In this document: positions 5,267 through 38,438 of the stretch, piece after piece
How positions within the stretch are numbered: position 1 is the first letter of the stretch
Layout: every line of letters starts with the position of its first letter
Source: Polaribacter sp. NJDZ03
GTDB taxonomy: Bacteria > Bacteroidota > Bacteroidia > Flavobacteriales > Flavobacteriaceae
Direction: 5' to 3'
DNA: 64,000 nucleotides
NCBI RefSeq assembly: GCF_019263805.1
Contig: NZ_CP079195.1
Span: forward strand, 1,529,001 to 1,593,000
Position numbers and translations under genes: made by a program
Notes under the pieces: model-generated
Told to the model about the DNA's origin: nothing
Database searches by the model: none
Seen by the model: only the letters and a program-made list of their open reading frames with translations

Positions 5267-6823
5267 ATGGTAAAAGAAATTCAACTTCGAGTAAATTTAA
5301 TAGAAGAACGTAAAGAAAACATCTTATTATACAAAGCTTCTAAGCAATTAAGCCTTGATAAAAGTGAAATTTCTGCCGTAAAAGTTTTACGTAAATCTAT
5401 TGATGCACGTAAAAAAGACATCATTTTTAATTATAAAGTAGCCGTTTACATCAACGAAAATATTCCAGATAAATCTGATTATATTTTTGAATACAAAGAC
5501 GTTTCTAATGCAAAAGAAATTCATATTATTGGTTTTGGACCTGCAGGAATGTACGCTGCCTTGCGTTGTATAGAGTTAGGTTACAAACCAATTGTTTTAG
5601 AACGTGGAAAAAATGTACAAGATAGAAGGCGAGATTTAAAAGCCATTAATCAAGATCATTTTGTAAACGAAGATTCTAATTACTGTTTTGGAGAAGGTGG
5701 CGCAGGTACTTATTCTGATGGAAAATTATATACTCGCTCTTTAAAACGTGGCGATGTTAGAAGAATTTTTGAAAACTTGGTTTTTCATGGAGCAACAGAG
5801 CAAATTTTGGTAGATGCGCATCCGCACATAGGAACCAATAAGCTACCTAAAATTATCGAAAATGTTCGTGAGAATATTTTAAAGTATGGTGGAGAAATTC
5901 ATTTTGAAACTCGCGTTACAGATTTTACCATAAAAAATAATAAATTACAAGCTATTCAGCTGAAAAACGGAACAGAAATGGCTGTAAACTCCGTTATTTT
6001 GGCAACAGGTCATTCTGCAAGAGATATTTACGAATTGTTACATAAAAAAGAAATTGCTTTAAAGGCAAAGTCTTTTGCAATGGGCGTTCGTGTAGAACAT
6101 CCGCAAGAAATTATAGATCAAATTCAATATCATTGCTCAGGAGAAAGAGACGAATTGTTACCTGCTGCAGCGTATAGTTTGGTGCATCAAGTAAACAACA
6201 GAGGCGTGTATTCTTTTTGTATGTGTCCTGGAGGCTTTATTGTCCCTGCAGCCACAGCAAATGGTGAGGTTGTTGTAAACGGAATGTCGCCTTCTCGTAG
6301 AAATAATAGATTTGCAAACTCGGGAATTGTTGTTGAATTAGATATTGATAAAGATTTTAAAAAATACGAAGAATTTGGCCCTTTAAAAGGGTTAGAATTT
6401 CAAAAGGATTTAGAAAAAATAGCCTTTTTGGCAGGAGGAAGAACACAAACTGCACCCGCACAAAGATTGGTAGATTTTGTGGATGGAAGACTTTCTAACG
6501 ATTTAAATGATTGTTCGTATCAACCGGGATTAAAATCGGCTCCTTTACATTCTTTATTGCCAAAAATTATTGGCGGTAGATTAAGGAAAGGTTTTGCTGC
6601 ATTCGGACAAAAAATGCATGGTTATTATACCAACGAAGCGAATATTATTGGGGTAGAATCTAGAACTTCATCTCCAGTAAACATCCCAAGAAAAGAAAGT
6701 TTAGAACATACAGAAATAGAAGGTTTATACCCATGTGGAGAAGGTGGTGGTTATGCTGGTGGAATTGTTTCTGCTGCTATGGATGGAGAACGTTGTGCAG
6801 AAGCAGCCATTTCAAAATTATAA
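5267..6823 (+). CDS. FAD-dependent dehydrogenase/oxidoreductase (COG2509-like)
   Basis: 518 residues. An N-terminal extension of about 85 residues precedes a Rossmann dinucleotide-binding motif GFGPAG (from G89). Characteristic blocks of this flavoprotein family follow: CFGEGGAGTYSDGKL in the middle and PCGEGGGYAGGIVSAAMDG near the C-terminus, where the latter contacts FAD. The family is widespread and annotated as uncharacterised FAD-dependent dehydrogenase; substrate unknown. It is cytosolic. A 59-bp gap separates it from the RimB/RimK/AstE operon on the same strand, so co-transcription is possible. Confidence 0.87.
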   Translation: MVKEIQLRVNLIEERKENILLYKASKQLSLDKSEISAVKVLRKSIDARKKDIIFNYKVAVYINENIPDKSDYIFEYKDVSNAKEIHIIGFGPAGMYAALRCIELGYKPIVLERGKNVQDRRRDLKAINQDHFVNEDSNYCFGEGGAGTYSDGKLYTRSLKRGDVRRIFENLVFHGATEQILVDAHPHIGTNKLPKIIENVRENILKYGGEIHFETRVTDFTIKNNKLQAIQLKNGTEMAVNSVILATGHSARDIYELLHKKEIALKAKSFAMGVRVEHPQEIIDQIQYHCSGERDELLPAAAYSLVHQVNNRGVYSFCMCPGGFIVPAATANGEVVVNGMSPSRRNNRFANSGIVVELDIDKDFKKYEEFGPLKGLEFQKDLEKIAFLAGGRTQTAPAQRLVDFVDGRLSNDLNDCSYQPGLKSAPLHSLLPKIIGGRLRKGFAAFGQKMHGYYTNEANIIGVESRTSSPVNIPRKESLEHTEIEGLYPCGEGGGYAGGIVSAAMDGERCAEAAISKL

Positions 6824-6882
6824 AAGTTTTTCTTTTTTAATCAATAAGTATCTGTAATTTTACTTCTTAATATAATTTACAA

Positions 6883-7320
6883 ATGAAGATTACAATTGGT
6901 AGAATTGATAAAGCCGATTTTCCTGAATTAATTTTAGAAGATATTGACGTAAAAATTGACTCTGGCGCATATACATCATCAATTCATTGTTCTAATATTG
7001 AAGAAATTACTGTAGGTGATGAAAATTTTATTAGATTTACATTATTAGATCCAGAACACTCGTTTTACAACAACAAAGAGTTTTCTACAAAAAAGTATGC
7101 TTCTAAATTGGTTAAAAGCTCTAATGGTATTTCTGAAAAAAGATTTATGATTGAGACAGAAATCATCATGTTTGATATAAACTTTCCAATTCATTTAACA
7201 TTAAGTGAACGTAAAGACATGAAATATCCTGTATTATTGGGAAGAAAATTTTTAAACAAAAAATTTGTGATAGATACTGCTAAAGAAGATTTATCACACA
7301 AATTAAAAAATAAAATATAA
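6883..7320 (+). CDS. RimB-like retropepsin-type aspartic protease (COG4067)
   Basis: 145 residues with the aspartic-protease signature D26-S27-G28 in the context [13 protein letters not shown], plus a second conserved stretch near the end ([13 protein letters not shown]). This is the small retropepsin-like family encoded next to RimK. In Pseudomonas the equivalent RimB is reported to trim glutamate tails from ribosomal protein S6. Retropepsins act as homodimers, which fits one DSG motif per chain. The stop codon overlaps the rimK ATG by one base, indicating translational coupling. A role in reversing or limiting RimK-made tails is inferred from context. Confidence 0.85.
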
Positions 7321-8195
7321 TGAGAATTGTAATTCTGTCTAGAAATCCAAAATTGTATTCAACTAGAAGATTAGTAGAAGCCGCTGAAAAAAGAGGTCAT
7401 GAAGTAATGGTTGTAGACCATTTAAAATGTAACATTGAAATAGAAAGAAAATCTCCAAAAATATTTTATAAGGGTGAATACATAGAAAATATAGATGCTA
7501 TTATACCTAGAATTGGTGCTTCTGTAACTTTTTACGGAACTGCTGTTATTCGTCAGTTTGAAATGATGAAAGTATTTTCTGCAGTTTCTTCTCAAGCTTT
7601 AGTAAAATCTAGAGATAAATTAAGCAGTTTACAAATTTTAGCAAGAGCTGGTGTTGGTTTACCAAAAACAGTATTTGCTAATTACACTAAAGATGTAGAG
7701 CATGTTGTAGAATCTGTTGGTGGCGCTCCTTTAATTTTAAAATTATTAGAAGGTACACAAGGTTTAGGGGTTGTTTTAGCTGAAACTAAAAATGCTGCAA
7801 CTTCTGTTTTAGAAGCTTTTAATGGTTTAGGTGCAAGAGTAATTGCGCAAGAATTTATTAAAGAAGCTGGCGGTGCAGATATTAGAGCTTTTGTGGTAGA
7901 TGGTAAAGTCGTTGGAGCTATGAAACGTCAAGGTAAAGAAGGAGAATTCCGCTCTAACTTACACAGAGGTGGTAATGCTACTGTTATAGAATTAACAGAC
8001 GAAGAAGAAAAAACAGCTTTAAAAGCAACCAAAGCTTTAGGTTTAGGAGTTGCTGGTGTAGATATGTTACAATCCTCTAAAGGACCATTGGTTTTAGAAG
8101 TAAATTCTTCTCCTGGTTTAGAAGGTATTGAAGTAGCTACAGGTAAAAATATTGCAAAAGAAATAATCCGTTTTTTAGAAATTCATGTCGAGTAA
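7320..8195 (+). CDS. rimK: RimK-type ATP-grasp glutamate ligase (ribosomal protein S6 modification)
   Basis: 291 residues, the usual RimK length. The N-terminal pre-ATP-grasp domain begins [10 protein letters not shown]. The ATP-grasp domain shows [16 protein letters not shown] (ATP lid region), [18 protein letters not shown], and the metal/ATP site [15 protein letters not shown] near the C-terminus. RimK enzymes add glutamates to the C-terminus of ribosomal protein S6 and can make poly-glutamate. It sits between a retropepsin (1-base overlap) and an AstE/AspA-like hydrolase (11-base overlap), a tightly coupled trio. The acceptor in this organism is not shown by the sequence. Confidence 0.9.
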
Positions 8196-9135
8196 ACCTT
8201 TTATCCTTTTAGGAAAAGTAATTCCTGAAGGAAAACGTACTGTTTTAGATTTAGAAGTAGCAAAACTACATACCAGAACCACTGTAAAGGTGCCTATAAT
8301 TATAGAACGTTCTCAGAATCCTGGTCCCGTAGTTTTATTACTAGCGGGTATACATGGAGATGAAACAAATGGTGTTGGTATTATTAGAGAAATTATTAAT
8401 TTAAAGATTAATAAACCGAAAACCGGAACCATTATTTGTATTCCTGTTTTTAATATTTTTGGCTATTTAATTCAGACTAGAGAATTTCCTGACGGACGAG
8501 ATTTAAATAGAATGTTTCCTGGTTCTGCTAGTGGTTCTTTAGCAAGCCAGTTTGCTTATCAATTTACAAAAGAAATTGCACCACTTGTAGATTATGTCAT
8601 TGATTTTCATACCGGTGGTGGAGATCGTGACAATATTGCACAAATTAGATGTAGTAAAGATGATGAAAAAGCATTAGAATTGGCAAAGGTTTTTAACCCA
8701 CCAATGATTGTTTTTTCTGAAAACATTACAAAATCACTAAGAGATACGTTACATAAAATGGGTAAAACCGTGTTACTTTTTGAAGGTGGAAAATCTAAAG
8801 AACTAAACCCTACAATTATTAACGAAGGTGTTAACGGAACTAGAAATGTATTAATCCGTTTAGGTCTTATTGAAGGCGATATTACGGTTAGAGCAACTCC
8901 TGTTTTTGTGCATAAAGCAAAATGGTTAAGAGCCTCTGATTCTGGGATGTTTAAAATTAGAGTTGCCAACGGAAGCTTTGTAAAAAAGAGAGAAGTTTTA
9001 GGCGTAATACAAGATCCTTTTGGTGAGTTTAAAAAGAAAATTTATGCGCCATTTGATTGTAATATTTTCTGTATTAATAAAACTCCAATTGTAAATAAAG
9101 GTGATGCATTATTTCATGTTAGTATAGATGAATAA
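8185..9135 (+). CDS. Succinylglutamate desuccinylase/aspartoacylase family zinc hydrolase (AstE/AspA-like)
   Basis: 316 residues, M14-like zinc hydrolase fold. The zinc ligands are H57 and E60 in GIHGDETNG and H142 in DFHTGGGD; a biotinyl-like beta-hammerhead tail (about 240-316) ends the chain as in many family members. The gene begins inside the end of rimK (11-base overlap), so its product is very likely made together with it. Known relatives remove acyl groups from amino acids or N-acyl amides. In this setting it may deacylate or trim a glutamate-containing product, but that is inference. A strong terminator follows 80 bp later. Confidence 0.87.
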
Positions 9136-29734: not shown

Positions 29735-30376
29735 TTATTGTTTCCACTCACTTGGGTTCTTTCTCCAATCATTTAATGTTGCCAACTCTTTATCTGTAAT
29801 ATAATTACTATCTAAAGCTTGTTCTAACAAGTTTTCGTAATTACTTAAAGTAGTTAATCCTACATTTTTTTCTTCAAAATTCTTCTTTGCAATATCAAAT
29901 CCATAAGAAAAAATAGCAACCATACCTTTTACAACACCACCCGCTTCTTTTAAAGCTTCCACTGCATTTAAGCTACTATTACCTGTACTTATTAAATCTT
30001 CAATTACAACAACATTTTGTCCGCTTTCTAAATGCCCTTCAATTTGGTTCTTTCTACCATGCTTTTTTGGCTCTGGCCTAACATAAATAAAAGGAACACC
30101 TAATTGTTGCGCTACTAAAACCCCAATAGCAATTGCACCTGTAGCAACACCAGCAATAACATCTGGCTTACCATATTCTAATTCTACAAGTTTTGATATT
30201 TCTTCTTTAAGAAAAACACGAACTGGAGGATAAGATAAAGTAACTCTATTATCACAATATATTGGAGACTTCCAACCTGACGCCCAATTAAAGGGATCAT
30301 TTGGGCTTAACTTTATTGCTTTTATTTGCAATAAAAGTTCAGCTGTTTTTTTTGCCGTATCTTTGTTTAAAATCAT
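29735..30376 (-). CDS. pyrE: Orotate phosphoribosyltransferase (PyrE)
   Basis: 213 residues from the ATG at 30374-30376 (MILNKDTAKKTAELLL), which is the start typical for flavobacterial PyrE; a longer frame to 30424 would overlap the divergent Nudix gene and is not used. The PRPP-binding motif VVVIEDLISTGNSS and the hood region FIYVRPEPKKHG are clear. It makes OMP from orotate and PRPP in pyrimidine synthesis. The start codon lies only 7 bp from that of the divergent Nudix gene. Confidence 0.94.
   Translation of the reverse strand: MILNKDTAKKTAELLLQIKAIKLSPNDPFNWASGWKSPIYCDNRVTLSYPPVRVFLKEEISKLVELEYGKPDVIAGVATGAIAIGVLVAQQLGVPFIYVRPEPKKHGRKNQIEGHLESGQNVVVIEDLISTGNSSLNAVEALKEAGGVVKGMVAIFSYGFDIAKKNFEEKNVGLTTLSNYENLLEQALDSNYITDKELATLNDWRKNPSEWKQ
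30358..30365 (+). promoter_or_regulatory. Putative -7 box for the Nudix gene, inside pyrE (TATCTTTG)
   Basis: TATCTTTG fits TAnnTTTG and lies 18 bp before the Nudix ATG at 30384, over the first codons of the divergent pyrE. No clear -33 element. Confidence 0.45.
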
Positions 30377-30380
30377 ATCG

Positions 30381-30388
30381 CAAATGTA
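30381..30388 (-). promoter_or_regulatory. Putative -7 box for pyrE, over the Nudix start codon (TACATTTG)
   Basis: On the minus strand TACATTTG fits TAnnTTTG and ends 4 bp before the pyrE ATG. It covers the Nudix ATG (30384-30386). The pyrE message would then be leaderless. Confidence 0.45.
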
Positions 30389-30986
30389 TAAAGTTTTTGT
30401 AAATGATACGCCAATAATTTTCACTTCTTCTTCACAAAAAGAAAATATTTTTCCTGTTTACAATTTTAAGAATGTTGTTTTTGATGAAATTATTCTGAAA
30501 CTAAAAAACAATGAACTTAAAGGAGTTATTTTTTACTCGACTGACTTAGAGAATGATTGGAAATCTTTTTTAACAAATATGAAAGTAATTCCCGCCGCTG
30601 GCGGATTAGTGCTAAACCCCAAAAAAGAAGTTTTATTTATTTTAAGAAACGGTGTTTGGGATTTACCTAAAGGATGGATTGAAAAAGAAGAAACAATAGA
30701 AACCGCAGCAATTAGGGAAGTAACAGAAGAATGTGGCATTTCTAACCTGCAACTTATCAAACCTTTAATTACTACTTATCATATTTATTTTCATAAAGGA
30801 GTTAAATTAAAACAGACTTATTGGTATTTAATGACTTCTAATTATTCAGAAAAATTAACACCTCAACTAGAAGAAGGCATTACCGAAGTTGTTTTTAAAA
30901 ATAAAACAGCCATTGAAGCTGCATTAGAAAATACGTACGCTAACATTCAATTAGTGTATAACACCTATTTAGAAACCACTAATTAG
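30384..30986 (+). CDS. Nudix hydrolase
   Basis: 200 residues. The ATG at 30384 is preferred over a TTG at 30363, which overlaps pyrE and a promoter-like box. The first 65 residues are a small N-terminal domain (MYKVFVNDTPIIF...), and the Nudix box runs GWIEKEETIETAAIREVTEECGI in the middle of the chain, complete with the GX5E and REVTEE residues. Substrate not predictable; the NUDIX fold here has a C-terminal tail ending near a conserved tyrosine-rich helix. Divergent from pyrE with 7 bp between start codons. Confidence 0.88.
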   Translation: MYKVFVNDTPIIFTSSSQKENIFPVYNFKNVVFDEIILKLKNNELKGVIFYSTDLENDWKSFLTNMKVIPAAGGLVLNPKKEVLFILRNGVWDLPKGWIEKEETIETAAIREVTEECGISNLQLIKPLITTYHIYFHKGVKLKQTYWYLMTSNYSEKLTPQLEEGITEVVFKNKTAIEAALENTYANIQLVYNTYLETTN

Positions 30987-33127: not shown

Positions 33128-33161
33128 AAAAAAGCTCAACTTTTAAAAGTTGAGCTTTTTT
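33128..33161. terminator. Bidirectional Rho-independent terminator
   Basis: A perfect 34-bp palindrome with arms AAAAAAGCTCAACTTTT and its complement, ending in T-runs on both strands. It lies between convergent SulP (+) and helicase (-) genes. Confidence 0.9.
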
Positions 33162-33166
33162 GTTGT

Positions 33167-36100
33167 TTATCCTATTGCTAATTTTGCAGCATCTTTCCAT
33201 AAATAATGTGGCATTGGCTCATTTAATTCCCAATTGATACTCATTGGTTTAGAACCATAATAATCTTTTAGATTTCCTTCTCCAATAAAAACATATCCAT
33301 TAGTATTTCCGAATTCATTTTTTGCTTTTTCACGAACAAAAAGTAATATTCTTTTTTCGGTTATTTTATGATTTATATAAGACAATCCTTTTCCTGTATC
33401 TGGTCTAGCAGAATTTTGAGTTTGCCAGTGAAATAATAATTCATTTACAGCATAATCATCATACATCGTTGTTGGGGAGAAGTTTTCTTCTGATTTTATT
33501 AAATTGATAAATAAAAGTTCAGTATTTATATCCTTTTTTTCTGCTATTCCTTCTCTGATAGTAGATTTGTCATCAAAACTACTAAATTTAAAAGCTACTA
33601 ATATTTGGTCTCTAGTGTAACGGCTATGTAATTTTAAAGGTTGTAGATACGGAAGATTAATTGGTAATTCTTTAAAATCTATATTTTCAATTAAGAATTC
33701 AAGAACTTCTTTTATTTCTTCCACTAAAGTAGGATTGTTTCCAATTTGTTTGATACTCTCTTCTAAAGAATTAAAAGAACCTTTTTTTAACCAAATATCA
33801 TAATGAAGCATTAAAAGCATTGTTTTTTCATTTTCTTTTAATTCAGATAAAACCAATTTAAAATTCTGTTTTGCAATTTTTAAAATGAAAGTAAAATAAC
33901 TTAATGAGTTTGTAGATAACCATTTATTAGAAATAGCAGAAACAATAGCCTTTTCATTTTCGGTATTAAAATCTTCTATTTTTCCTGCAAGTTGACATAG
34001 TCTTTTCCAGCTACCTCTTTTGTAAATATCTTGTAAAGGAATCGAGTAGAGCTTGCTAAAGTTTCCAATAGTTAAAGGTAAGTTTGTATCATGCTGAAAA
34101 CTTTTAATTTTACTAATTAAATTCTTTTTATTTAGAGAAGTGGCAGCTGCTATATTTTCAAGAATAGTTTCTTTTGTCTTTTTCTCTAAAATAATAGAAC
34201 AACCTAAAGGAAGATGAGGGAAATCATCTTCAATTTCTTTAGAAACAGTAGTATTTGTTTTACCAATTAAAGCTCTAAATTTACTTTCAAAATTATATTC
34301 TGGTTTAGAGTTTCCAACAAAATCCAACACCGTTAAACAGTCTTTTTCTTCATGAAGTCTTAAACCTCTTCCTAGTTGTTGTAAAAATACCGTTAAGCTT
34401 TCTGTTGGTCTTAAAAAGAGTACTGTGTCTATTTCCGGAATATCAATTCCTTCATTAAACATGTCAACAACAAATAAATAATTAATCTCTTTTTTCTCTA
34501 ATTGCTGACGGATAAAAACTCTTTCATTACTATTATTACTTGTAAGATAAGCTGCTCTTAAACCTGCTAAAGTGAATTTTTGTGCCATGTATTTGGCATG
34601 TTCTATAGAAACACAATATCCTAATGTTCTTACATCATTTATGTCTTTTGAATATTTATCTAAAGCACCTATTATTTCTCTAACTCTTCTATCACTTCCT
34701 GTGTAAAGGTTTGTCAGTTCACTAGCTACATATTTACCTTTTACCCAACTTACGTTTGTTAAATCAATACTATCTGTAATTCCAAAGTATTGAAAAGGAC
34801 AAAGCAGTTTTCTATTCATTGCTTCAGGTAACCTAATTTCTGCGGCAATTTTATTATCAAAATCATCAAGAATATCCCCACCATCCATACGTTCTGGTGT
34901 TGCGGTTAAGCCAAGTAAAACTTTTGGTTTAAAATAGTTGATTATTTTTCGATAGCTATTTGCTGTTTGATGATGGCATTCATCAACAATAATAAAGTCA
35001 TAATAATCTGGTGATAAATTAGAATTTTCTAGTTGGTTATTTACTGATTGAACGGAAGCAAAAACAAATTCGAAATTATCAGGAACCATACCGTCCACCC
35101 ATAATTCGCCAATATTATTGTTTCTTAAAACTCCTTGAAAAGTAGATAATGATTTTTGTAGTATTTCTTTTCTATGCGCAAGGAATAAGAGTTTAGATGA
35201 TTTGTTATTTTGTTTAAAACGTTTGTAATCAAATGCGGAAATAACTGTTTTACCAGTTCCTGTTGCTGCAACTACAAGGTTTCTAAATCGGTTATGTACA
35301 GTTCTTTCTACTTCTAATTTTTCTAAAACTTCATTTTGATAAGGAAATGGTTTAATATCAAATAAAGCAGTTGTATTCACGTAAGGCTTGCTAAATTTAC
35401 TTTGTTTTAATGCATTTTGAAGTTTTTCTTTATGAATAGAATCATCAAACGTTTCAAAATCTTTACTTAGCCAATAAGCATCAAAAGTTTTTTGAAATTT
35501 ATCTATAATATGACCAACTTCTTTTGTTGTAATTTTTAGATTCCATTCTAAACCATCCGTAAGAGCAGATCTAGAAAAGTTAGAAGAACCTATGTATGCT
35601 GTATGAAAACCCGTGTTTCTGTAAAATAAATAAGCTTTAGCATGTAATCTTTCATTAGATGTGTTGTAAGATATTTTAACTTCTGTATTTGGTAGTTTAG
35701 AAAGTAATTGAATGGCTTTATAATCTGTAGCGCCAATATATGTGGTTGTTATTACCTTTAATTTTCCGCCACGTTCTGTAAACTCTCTTAATTCTTTTTC
35801 AAGAATTATAATGCCTTTAAATTTGATAAAAGATACTAATAGGTTTATTTGATTTGAAGAAAGGATTTCTTTTTTAAGTTCACTTTCTAAAGATAAACCG
35901 CCATTTCCTCCTGTAAATAATTCGCTTTGGGTTAACCTTGTATAGGGCGTTATTTCTTTAAGTCTTAAATCTAAATTAAAAAAATGTGCATCCGTTTTAG
36001 AAAAAACAGCTTTTAAAATTTCTCCTTCAATATTTATTAAATCTCCTTCAAACTCTTGTTTGTTAAGCTCTTCTTTTAGTAACTTAATTATTTTATTAGC

Positions 36101-36301
36101 AATTTCTATTTGTAGTTCTATTTTTCCTTTTATAAGCTGAAAAGCATGTTTTACCGTTAGTGCTAAATGTTTAGATAAAATACTCGAAGCCTCCTCTTTA
36201 TCAATTTTAATTTTCTTTAAATAGAATTTTTCTTTGTCTAGCTTATTTAAATTCGCAGAAACTAACTGTGTTATTAATTCTTCGTAAATTCCTTGATTCA
36301 T
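33167..36301 (-). CDS. PLD-nuclease / SF2 helicase / DUF3427 protein
   Basis: 1044 residues. After a helical N-terminus there is a phospholipase D-type nuclease domain with the HxK motif (H220, LHAKAYLF, then GSSNFS). A superfamily 2 helicase follows with P-loop AATGTGKT (about 345-352), DECHH (D440) and GLTATPERMDGG. The second RecA lobe contains QQLGRGLRLH. The last third ends in a DUF3427-like domain (KFSSFDDKSTIREG, FLFHWQTQNSARPDTGKGLSY-type region). No signal peptide. The start overlaps the stop of the Nudix gene by ATGA, so the two are translated together. This architecture is typical of nucleic-acid-processing proteins suspected of defence or repair; activity not shown. Confidence 0.88.
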   Translation of the reverse strand: MNQGIYEELITQLVSANLNKLDKEKFYLKKIKIDKEEASSILSKHLALTVKHAFQLIKGKIELQIEIANKIIKLLKEELNKQEFEGDLINIEGEILKAVFSKTDAHFFNLDLRLKEITPYTRLTQSELFTGGNGGLSLESELKKEILSSNQINLLVSFIKFKGIIILEKELREFTERGGKLKVITTTYIGATDYKAIQLLSKLPNTEVKISYNTSNERLHAKAYLFYRNTGFHTAYIGSSNFSRSALTDGLEWNLKITTKEVGHIIDKFQKTFDAYWLSKDFETFDDSIHKEKLQNALKQSKFSKPYVNTTALFDIKPFPYQNEVLEKLEVERTVHNRFRNLVVAATGTGKTVISAFDYKRFKQNNKSSKLLFLAHRKEILQKSLSTFQGVLRNNNIGELWVDGMVPDNFEFVFASVQSVNNQLENSNLSPDYYDFIIVDECHHQTANSYRKIINYFKPKVLLGLTATPERMDGGDILDDFDNKIAAEIRLPEAMNRKLLCPFQYFGITDSIDLTNVSWVKGKYVASELTNLYTGSDRRVREIIGALDKYSKDINDVRTLGYCVSIEHAKYMAQKFTLAGLRAAYLTSNNSNERVFIRQQLEKKEINYLFVVDMFNEGIDIPEIDTVLFLRPTESLTVFLQQLGRGLRLHEEKDCLTVLDFVGNSKPEYNFESKFRALIGKTNTTVSKEIEDDFPHLPLGCSIILEKKTKETILENIAAATSLNKKNLISKIKSFQHDTNLPLTIGNFSKLYSIPLQDIYKRGSWKRLCQLAGKIEDFNTENEKAIVSAISNKWLSTNSLSYFTFILKIAKQNFKLVLSELKENEKTMLLMLHYDIWLKKGSFNSLEESIKQIGNNPTLVEEIKEVLEFLIENIDFKELPINLPYLQPLKLHSRYTRDQILVAFKFSSFDDKSTIREGIAEKKDINTELLFINLIKSEENFSPTTMYDDYAVNELLFHWQTQNSARPDTGKGLSYINHKITEKRILLFVREKAKNEFGNTNGYVFIGEGNLKDYYGSKPMSINWELNEPMPHYLWKDAAKLAIG

Positions 36302-36690
36302 AATGCTAAAAATTCTTTTAAAATTGGTAAATCTGCATCAGCCCAATCTAAGTTAATTAATTCGTTTTTATTAACTAAAACAAAATCAGAATGCTCTTTA
36401 AATAACAATTCCCCTGAAACATAATCAGCAATAAATGGAATTAATTTAATTTTAAAATCAGAATATTGATGAATGACAGGAGTAAGTCTTTTCTTTACAT
36501 CAATAATAATGTTTAGCTCCTCAAATATTTCTCTTTTTATACAATCAATTTCAGTTTCACCTTTTTCAATCTTTCCACCTGCAAATTCCCATTTCAAAGG
36601 AAGTTTCATTGTATCGCTTCGTTGAACAGCTAAAATTTTGTCATCAAAATGGATGATTGCACAAGTAACAAGGGGTGTTTTTGTTTTCAA
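36298..36690 (-). CDS. MutT-like Nudix hydrolase coupled to the PLD-helicase
   Basis: 130 residues, a MutT-type Nudix protein. The Nudix box starts at G39 (GKIEKGETEIDCIKREIFEEL), with the catalytic E57-E58 pair, and the preceding WEFAGGKIE is typical of (d)NTP-cleaning MutT enzymes. It overlaps the PLD-helicase start by 4 bases (ATGA), which ties their synthesis. It could hydrolyse an oxidised or signalling nucleotide and so prevent or control action of the helicase partner; this is inference. Confidence 0.87.
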   Translation of the reverse strand: MKTKTPLVTCAIIHFDDKILAVQRSDTMKLPLKWEFAGGKIEKGETEIDCIKREIFEELNIIIDVKKRLTPVIHQYSDFKIKLIPFIADYVSGELLFKEHSDFVLVNKNELINLDWADADLPILKEFLAL

Positions 36691-36749
36691 TTTTATTTAA
36701 ACTATTTTCTAAAATAAATAATATTATCTTCTTTTCCTATAAAAATCCA

Positions 36750-38438
36750 CTATTCACTAACCAAACTCATAAAACCATCTCCAACATCCTCAGTTCTTAA
36801 ACTCGGAACAATTTTATAGTGCTTTTTTATAAAAGAAATTTGTTTGACATTCACTGCTGGTAAAGGCACAATACCAACCGTCCAGAAATAACTTTCTTTT
36901 GTGGGAGAATTGTAGTGAAACCCGTTTTCTATATGCTGCTCAAAGTCGGCACTCATGCTAGAATTTACATTTGGTTGTAAAATATTTTCAAGTTTTAAAA
37001 GGCTTGTTTTAGTATTCGTTTTTTTAATAGTGGTATAATTACTTAGCTTTAATTCTGTTAAAAAAGGAACCAAACTTAATAACAAACTCACAGCCATAAA
37101 AAATACAATTGTTTTTTCTTTTCTAAAAAACCAAACACAGATTTGCATGGCAAAGAATAACATATAAAAAAAGAAAAATCTGTATTGAGGAGAGAAAATC
37201 CAAGCCAATACAAAATTTAAAACACCTATTACATACAATATAAACACGGACTTTTCTTTACTTTTAAAATACCATAAAAAAGGGAAAGAGATTAAAAGCG
37301 ACATAAATATCATATTTATAATTCCGTTAAACTTAAACGAAGTTATCCAAGCAATAAATAATTGATAGGTAGAAAGATTTGCTAACTCTTGATAATCGAA
37401 AGCAGCATTATACGTACCTACTTTAAACAATTGAATGAGTGCTGTAGGTACTTTCCAGTCTACATTTAGAACATCTAAAATTTGCAAAGGATATAACAAG
37501 TAACCTGTAAGAATTACATTTTTCATTAAAAACAATCCCAATACAAAAAGTGAGAATACGATGGGGTTTACCAAACTACTTTTCAGTACTTTATAATGTT
37601 TTATAAATAAAATCAATGGTAATAAAACCAATATACAAGTAGTAATTTTAATAACACATAAAAAAATTGTGAGCAATAGAATAAGTATAAAATTAGAGTA
37701 TTCAATCTTCTTAAAATGCTTTAAAAAAAGATAAAATAACAACTGACTTATTAAAAAAACCGGTAAATCTGGAGATGGTGCGTTGATGAAAAAAATAATA
37801 AAAGGCAAACTAACCAACACACTTCCTATATATAATTGATGTATTTTTTTTGTTGTCTTAAATTGATGCAACTGCTGAAAGCTGTAAAAAGAAAAAATGA
37901 TTAAAAAGAAACCATTCAAATCGTTAAAATTCGTTTCTAAAAACGGAAAAGTAAACGCTGCTTGTAAAATATGCCAACTAGAAGTTTGCGCAAAAAAGAT
38001 GTGTAAATTACCTAATCCTTTTACAAAACCATATTCATTTAACCACTTAATGGTTTGCAGGTAATAACTCTCATTATCAAAAATAGAAGGTGTAACCGAA
38101 GACATTGCCAAAGCAATGATAAAAATAAAAAGAAGTCCAAATTTATAGGTTTTACTAAATGACAACCAACTCTTTTTAAACTGCGTTAACTGGATCTTAA
38201 TATAATTTCTGAAAAAATAAAGACAAAAAAGAGTGATGCTGCTCATTACCCCATAATAAACAAGGTCTAAGGCAAAGAAAAAAGCATATAACCAACTGAA
38301 TAATGTAATTGAAAATAGTCCTAAAATATGGTGGATGGTAAAATTTTGGGATTCAATTTTAAATAGTTTTTTTAATAAAAAACCAAAGCTTAAGCAGGAT
38401 ATAAAAATATAAATCCAATTAATTAAAATTAAAAGCAT
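36750..38438 (-). CDS. Multipass membrane protein, GT-C-like
   Basis: 562 residues with about 12-14 hydrophobic segments and a C-terminal soluble tail of about 90 residues. Motifs resemble the GT-C glycosyltransferase/LIC_10190-type family: SSVTPSIFDNESYYLQTIKWLNEYGFVKGLGNLH early on, where the DxE and acidic residues at the end of a helix are characteristic. It likely adds a sugar from a lipid carrier to an exported glycan or protein. No neighbouring glycan genes, so its pathway is unknown. Followed by a repeat-rich gap of about 950 bp. Confidence 0.75.
   Translation of the reverse strand: MLLILINWIYIFISCLSFGFLLKKLFKIESQNFTIHHILGLFSITLFSWLYAFFFALDLVYYGVMSSITLFCLYFFRNYIKIQLTQFKKSWLSFSKTYKFGLLFIFIIALAMSSVTPSIFDNESYYLQTIKWLNEYGFVKGLGNLHIFFAQTSSWHILQAAFTFPFLETNFNDLNGFFLIIFSFYSFQQLHQFKTTKKIHQLYIGSVLVSLPFIIFFINAPSPDLPVFLISQLLFYLFLKHFKKIEYSNFILILLLTIFLCVIKITTCILVLLPLILFIKHYKVLKSSLVNPIVFSLFVLGLFLMKNVILTGYLLYPLQILDVLNVDWKVPTALIQLFKVGTYNAAFDYQELANLSTYQLFIAWITSFKFNGIINMIFMSLLISFPFLWYFKSKEKSVFILYVIGVLNFVLAWIFSPQYRFFFFYMLFFAMQICVWFFRKEKTIVFFMAVSLLLSLVPFLTELKLSNYTTIKKTNTKTSLLKLENILQPNVNSSMSADFEQHIENGFHYNSPTKESYFWTVGIVPLPAVNVKQISFIKKHYKIVPSLRTEDVGDGFMSLVSE

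Follow-up and report, generated by a model that had tools for sequence, protein, structure and literature searches.

Introduction

SauUSI is a Type IV restriction enzyme that requires ATP or dATP (PMC3874153) and cuts DNA containing 5-methylcytosine (m5C) or 5-hydroxymethylcytosine (hm5C) (PMC3874153; PMC7913695); according to the latter source, it shreds the DNA between its sites. Q5LBB1 of B. fragilis, with the structure 3GWY, and E. coli NudG are 5-methyl-dCTP pyrophosphatases, and 3GWY hydrolyses 5-methyl-deoxycytidine triphosphate (5-Me-dCTP) and 5-hydroxymethyl-dCTP (5-MeOH-dCTP) with kcat/Km values of 4.8e6 and 4.4e6 per M per s, respectively (PMC5158307). The adjacency of SauUSI and Nudix genes has been printed once, as 'DNA repair' (PMC7641849, BMC Biology 2020). 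No functional proposal for this pairing was found in the open-licence literature searched: the passages of PMC7913695, PMC12707154 and PMC11514479 contained none, and those of PMC7159879 mention SauUSI and Nudix in different contexts. Here, we analysed a stretch of 64,000 nucleotides from Polaribacter sp. NJDZ03 (contig NZ_CP079195.1, positions 1,529,001 to 1,593,000; hereafter the window), in which a putative SauUSI-type restriction gene overlaps a gene for a Nudix hydrolase. Modification-dependent restriction enzymes lack a partner methyltransferase, and how their hosts avoid attacking themselves when modified nucleotides enter the pool is, to our knowledge, an open question.

Domains and catalytic residues of the large protein

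The 1044-amino-acid product of the larger gene is, judged from its sequence, a SauUSI-type Type IV restriction enzyme, with a PLD nuclease, an SF2 ATPase, a coupler and an SRA-type DUF3427 end (Table 1). Pfam searches matched PLDc_2 (6.6e-12), ResIII (2.8e-41), Helicase_C and DUF3427 (5.9e-27; residues 833-1037, 95 bits). An earlier reading of the window from its letters (the sequence-only reading) had reported two open reading frames (ORFs) with an ATGA overlap, an HxK motif at H220, a P-loop, a DECHH motif at D440 and a DUF3427-like end. All of these were recovered: the overlap lies at 36298-36301 with the Nudix gene as the upstream member, H220 and K222 form the PLD HxK motif, the P-loop ATGTGKT occupies residues 346-352, and D440-E-C-H-H is present. 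That reading had also suggested that the nuclease-helicase could belong to a defence or damage-response module, citing DISARM as a system with both activities. A defence role is supported, in the form of a restriction enzyme, and a likeness to DISARM is not. DISARM comprises a helicase as well as a PLD protein, whereas here both lie in one chain with a DUF3427 end, and the large protein, to which the DISARM check was confined (DrmA and DrmB were not searched across the whole window), scored 29.6 bits for DrmC versus 759 bits for mREase_IV in PADLOC. A RadD-type repair helicase (116 bits against a cut-off of 720 bits) and, on the PADLOC results, a Type I HsdR identity were also rejected.

Comparison with 147 relatives showed that the PLD residues H220, K222, G238, S239, N241 and E252 are invariant (147/147) and shared with SauUSI, and that the ATPase residues K351, D440, E441, R645 and R648 are present in all 147. 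Most of the family lacks the glutamate of the HxK(x)4E motif, which is present in 3/21 proteins of clade A and 0/126 of clade B. The C-terminal target recognition domain has an SRA fold by prediction, and four of the six residues of the SauUSI m5C pocket (M829, Y831, F841, I842, D858 and W868) are matched in the window enzyme by F931, I932, D949 and W959, while the positions of Y831 and M829 hold I919 and E917. The protein resembles SauUSI (7CLG) in domain order, catalytic residues, predicted SRA end and a Nudix gene directly upstream, and differs in belonging to another clade (B; 25-27% identity to clade A rows), in these two pocket residues and in having some 100 additional residues at the N-terminus.

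The Nudix partner

The small protein matched Pfam NUDIX (6.4e-13), and its predicted structure (predicted local distance difference test, pLDDT, 94.9) has the Nudix fold. E57, singled out by the sequence-only reading, falls inside the Nudix box, and together with E58 it is unchanged across 25 linked Nudix rows; the box departs from the consensus once, with N60 in place of the usual G. In the fold comparison, the protein was 36% identical to 3GWY and 34% to NudG, which rank among its closest relatives of solved structure and share with it the Nudix fold and the end motif A-D, and 26% identical to M. smegmatis MutT2 (5ZRO, with 5mdCTP); the MutT2-5mdCTP structure was among its nearest folds. SauUSI-linked Nudix proteins from L216, a congener locus, and from locus L121 scored 137 bits to 3GWY versus 58 and 47 bits to MutT (1mut). 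The family of the window Nudix points to modified dCTP as a candidate substrate. Each of the two genes matches one of the PADLOC entries mREase_IV and PDC-S07, which are separate models there; PDC-S07 also fits E. coli MutT and NudG.

The family also includes a Nudix that is fused, in genome G130, to a Schlafen-group-3-type helicase (L052:3125-5497, minus strand; PADLOC PDC-S41, 951 bits), a candidate for another use of this family in defence.

Linkage of SauUSI-family and Nudix genes across genomes

The linkage set comprised 147 SauUSI-family proteins longer than 850 amino acids (21 of clade A and 126 of clade B), which were pooled from a phylum sample, a set of named loci, a Bacillota sample and two congener loci, and so are not an even draw. 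The results showed a Nudix gene within 3 kb of 62 of the 147 genes, within 300 nucleotides in 59 cases, in three arrangements with the Nudix on either side and on either strand. The pairing is therefore real and recurs in many bacteria, in line with the earlier suggestion that a PLD nuclease-helicase and a nucleotide-cleaving partner could form a defence module. In a census of neighbouring proteins of at least 90 amino acids within two genes, in which Nudix hits were kept first where ORFs overlapped, Nudix was the commonest family (59/147 loci). The runner-up, a family of about 320 amino acids, occurred at 10 of the 147 loci (including L119, L130, L132, L171 and L183).

In the phylum sample of 296 genomes, 43 had a DUF3427 match (40 over the cut-off), 102 matched the window Nudix at E<=1e-10, and the Nudix was the directly upstream gene in 19 of the 43; in two of these 19 (G177 and G094), the contig ends within the restriction gene that follows the Nudix. 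The surrounding DNA was read in 38 of the 43 genomes, and the other five (G102, G105, G179, G216 and G295) had no Nudix match at E<=1e-10. The paired Bacteroidota loci show a tight overlap and a fixed gene order, with few exceptions. Among the 80 named loci, which were the best of 579 confirmed ones and lie nearest to clade B, 26 were paired, comprising 16 with the Nudix directly upstream, 8 with it downstream in the same orientation (in L158 a small ORF intervenes) and 2 with it within 2.3 kb. In the Bacillota sample, DUF3427 was found in 44 of 348 genomes, and 40 of 46 places were read; the remainder were two loci already covered, an additional place in G616 and three places that were weak or short. 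Eleven of the 14 clade A Bacillota loci were adjacent (4 upstream, 2 downstream and 5 convergent), one had the Nudix at 1.6 kb with the gene cut by the contig start, and two had no Nudix; for clade B, with fragments counted, 6 of 26 were adjacent and one lay at 2.3 kb. Overall, 19 of the 21 clade A enzymes were paired.

Some loci showed additional features. In L155, a SauUSI gene is separated from its Nudix by a reverse-transcriptase-like ORF (L155:9198-10580), recognised by eye from its sequence. A SauUSI-type protein of 1279 amino acids with a longer N-terminal part (L067:179-4018) is encoded about 12 kb from a clade A Nudix-SauUSI pair in the same genome. The clade A proteins of L062, L064 and L065 (1125-1155 amino acids) carry an extra C-terminal part, matching Peptidase_S24 in L064, which perhaps serves damage-linked control.

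SauUSI itself is paired with a Nudix gene on an S. aureus contig

A search of a phage collection returned 512 records, mostly partial matches, including the S. aureus contig OR845003.1 (55.6 kb). This contig encodes a 953-amino-acid protein (2066 bits to 7CLG) and, 1 nucleotide upstream of it, a 133-amino-acid Nudix (280 bits to 5X1X, 'Mutator mutT protein'). Hence, SauUSI itself has a Nudix pair on this contig, and the two members of this pair appear to have been crystallised separately, as 7CLG and 5X1X. The presence of a phosphoglucomutase and a Csa1-family protein on OR845003.1 suggested that it is chromosomal DNA. Among six plasmid loci viewed from the records listed, the three of clade A (Hymenobacter, Latilactobacillus and Lactiplantibacillus) each had a '(deoxy)nucleoside triphosphate pyrophosphohydrolase' gene directly upstream, and no Nudix was present at the three of clade B.

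Controls and gene trees

HsdR (PF12008) was found in 59 of the 296 genomes of the phylum sample and in none of the 59 did it adjoin a Nudix match, adjacency in the controls being judged from coordinates with contig ends not taken into account. Fisher values (4e-9 and 3e-7) and a binomial value ignore kinship and were not relied on. On a FastTree tree of the SauUSI family, which is rough (32 of 144 branches open), the paired or unpaired state changed at least 21 times, and the arrangement among paired rows at least 12 times. In the weakly resolved Nudix tree the linked rows were scattered and their partners mixed clades A and B; the S. aureus Nudix, for example, is 61% identical to that of L160, which has a clade B partner. 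The distances of the two partners were correlated (rho 0.34 over 59 pairs, reached by 0 of 999 permutations; 0.68 in clade A and 0.49 in clade B).

Within clade A, the base-reading Asp was kept in 19 of 19 paired enzymes and replaced by Asn in both unpaired ones (L243 and L245), which are sister sequences, so that the replacement counts as one event; its restriction to unpaired enzymes fits a self-protective Nudix. These two proteins also lack the pocket Trp (Ala/Ile), as do 2 of the 19 paired clade A enzymes, and may read a different modified base.

Several other associations were sought. A link of the unlinked Nudix relatives with Type IV enzymes (McrBC) was unsupported, given nine scanned loci and the genomes with McrC, which showed no adjacency. 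NF007834 matched at E<=1e-8 in 42 of the 50 genomes of the named loci with none over the cut-off, and thus cannot separate MutT from NudG. No Nudix domain that could mark a Nudix-SauUSI fusion was present among the 120 homologues listed of 7999 scored, and ten neighbours of unpaired or oddly arranged SauUSI genes had no common family.

A restriction hotspot in congeners

To place the pair in its genomic context, 18 congener loci around the plus-strand gene that adjoins it across a hairpin, which we take from its sequence to be a SulP-family gene, were read. On the other side, a 562-amino-acid gene without a Pfam match lies 59 nucleotides upstream of the pair. The left limit of similarity with congener G381 is at 33161, and the right flank is also kept in the three closest congeners, with different cargo between about 33161 and 36751: a clade B Nudix-SauUSI pair and a 1333-amino-acid protein with a secretion-tail domain (G382), a clade A pair in the opposite orientation (G378), or a C5-methyltransferase (392.7 bits) and a 270-amino-acid protein with a weak REase_II match (G381). 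In more distant congeners, the same SulP gene is followed by a C5-methyltransferase (G365), DrmA (G346) or a Helicase_II-type gene (G373). Of 18 cargo proteins outside the SauUSI pairs, 5 were matched by PADLOC and 13 were not. The slot between the SulP gene and the 562-amino-acid gene thus varies in content and is frequently occupied by restriction genes, and the earlier statement that the pair is not placed among defence genes, leaving a repair role equally open, is not supported in view of the other restriction cargo of this slot in close congeners. The genome of the strain also carries McrC- and HsdR-family genes, and no C5-methyltransferase (PF00145) was matched in it at E<=0.001, which is compatible with, and not proof of, a host free of conflicting m5C methylation.

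Possible role of the Nudix partner

We propose that the operon may be a two-gene Type IV restriction module, in which the SRA-type end of the large protein would read 5-modified cytosine in incoming DNA, the ATPase would drive the protein along the DNA, and dimerised PLD domains would cut, as described by others for SauUSI. The Nudix would remove modified dCTPs arising from salvage of shredded foreign DNA, imported nucleosides or phage synthesis, and so keep modified cytosine out of newly made host DNA, which would otherwise become a target of the host's own restriction enzyme; it would act as an antidote on the precursor pool and not on DNA. Such self-protection is suggested by the recurrence of the pairing in many bacteria, and it fits the match between the DNA that SauUSI cuts (m5C/hm5C) and the nucleotides that 3GWY destroys (5-Me-dCTP and 5-MeOH-dCTP). 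SauUSI shredding could free modified nucleotides for salvage, which might explain why the partner is found at SauUSI and not at McrBC. The domains, catalytic residues, linkage, presence beside SauUSI and hotspot are direct observations, and the two activities were established by others on homologues, from which we infer that the window proteins would cleave m5C/hm5C DNA and hydrolyse modified dCTP. That the Nudix protects its host by removing the modified dCTPs on which the mark of its own restriction enzyme depends is, in our judgement, a little short of an even chance. The broader proposition, that SauUSI-family restriction is often, and in clade A nearly always, a two-component system whose Nudix polices the deoxynucleoside triphosphate pool so that the mark is never written, is put forward slightly more tentatively, again with somewhat less than an even chance of being right.

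A number of observations weigh against self-protection. A lack of joint conservation, which the sequence-only reading had named as refuting its proposal, was not observed, although 85 of the 147 genes have no Nudix within 3 kb, 14 of which lie near a contig edge or the edge of the DNA read. Most clade B members are unpaired, and none of 18 gammaproteobacterial loci had a Nudix within 3 kb (L152 had a weak 28.6-bit match 4 kb away). The phylum sample includes 24 genomes whose DUF3427 gene is unpaired, and 23 of them (all but G276) had no match to the window Nudix anywhere at E<=1e-10; therefore the partner is not strictly needed, and the idea that a NudG encoded elsewhere serves the unpaired enzymes was unsupported. 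McrC (PF10117), another m5C-dependent system, was found in 41 of the 296 genomes and adjoined a Nudix match in none; in G223 it lies about 5 kb from the Nudix, on the far side of the SauUSI gene. In clade B, unpaired enzymes have pocket residues identical to those of paired ones, and therefore the pocket does not explain the presence of the partner there; in the window enzyme, moreover, Y831 and M829 of SauUSI are replaced by I919 and E917. As for the substrate, the best PDB matches of the window Nudix were tied (3gwy, 80.9 bits; 5x1x, 80.3 bits), and its fold scores for cytidine and 8-oxo-dGTP enzymes lay less than 2 Z apart. It belongs to a family that also takes unmodified nucleotides; MutT2 digests dCTP too (PMC10742078), and 3GWY is equally active on ribo-5-Me-CTP (6.7e6; PMC5158307).

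Other roles of the Nudix were considered. It might destroy 5-hm-dCTP or 5-Me-dCTP made by a phage, which would then be cut either by the SauUSI-type enzyme or, once unmodified, by ordinary restriction. The same substrate match, the McrC- and HsdR-family genes of this genome and the presence of a C5-methyltransferase and a weak Type II match in the slot of a congener are consistent with this, and passages of a 2025 review suggest that phages might be detected when the CTP pool is converted to 5hmdCTP (PMC12707154); however, a phage with less modified cytosine would be protected from the partner enzyme, so that a constant association of the two genes would be hard to understand, and the lack of an HsdR link (0/59 genomes) also argues against this role, which we consider unlikely. 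Equally improbable in our view is that the Nudix is housekeeping cargo, a general MutT/NudG cleaner (e.g. of oxidative damage) that limits collateral damage or hitch-hikes. The PADLOC PDC-S07 scores of E. coli NudG (147.3 bits) and MutT (130.7) are close to that of the window Nudix (147.6), the neighbour was called 'DNA repair' in BMC Biology 2020 (PMC7641849), and unlinked relatives at nine loci sit in ordinary contexts, with neighbours such as TonB-plug, DUF5074, YrdC, WbqC, ClpB-type, AhpC/TSA and MFS genes; yet hitch-hiking hardly explains linkage on either side and strand, or the absence beside HsdR and McrC. It seems very improbable that the Nudix is regulatory, either switching the restriction enzyme on in infection by hydrolysing its gating nucleotide (a signal, or ATP/dATP through its level) or binding the enzyme. 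The tight overlap and fixed order of the paired Bacteroidota loci and the ATP or dATP requirement of SauUSI (PMC3874153) would suit such control, but a lone SauUSI polypeptide suffices in vitro and when cloned in E. coli (PMC3874153), many homologues have no partner, and a complex was not indicated by any result.

If self-protection is correct, a dedicated 5-modified-dCTP pyrophosphatase would answer the question of host self-avoidance for the SauUSI family. It would also represent a novel type of antidote: in an inversion of the restriction-modification pair, the partner of the enzyme would counteract modification, and at a stage preceding DNA synthesis. Some 'mutator' Nudix proteins whose structures have been solved would thereby gain a function in the cell.

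Features of the locus and further observations

Table 1. Coordinates of the features described in the window.
Feature	Position	Strand	Details
SauUSI-type restriction gene (putative)	33167..36301	-	1044 aa; Pfam; PADLOC mREase_IV PDLC03659, 759 bits; PDB 7clg, 275 bits
NudG/MutT2-like Nudix hydrolase gene (putative)	36298..36690	-	130 aa, TTG start; Pfam NUDIX, NUDIX_4
PLD-like nuclease domain	35471..35800	-	residues 168-277; HxK at 220-222
SF2 helicase-like ATPase	34355..35356	-	residues 316-649; K351 P-loop, DE 440-441, R645, R648
C-terminal base-reading domain, predicted SRA fold	33170..33730	-	residues 858-1044
Nudix box	36508..36576	-	residues 39-61, with E57/E58
Terminator-like hairpin, shared by SulP gene (+) and pair (-)	33128..33161		perfect palindrome and T-run
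Variable cargo segment, restriction hotspot	33162..36750		flanks kept in three closest congeners, cargo differs

The window contains a second Nudix gene (30363-30986, plus strand, 207 amino acids), 2.2 kb beyond the pair, to which the paired Nudix gave no match at E<=1e-10. A MazG-like relative was absent from the ORFs of the window and of loci L033-L192 and L215-L272. A MazG-like partner, considered as a substitute pyrophosphatase, was seen once, on a Lactiplantibacillus plantarum plasmid (L286), where genes for a MazG-like pyrophosphohydrolase (6368-6688) and a GIY-YIG/SLFN-g3 helicase protein (6706-8448) come after a Nudix-SauUSI pair.

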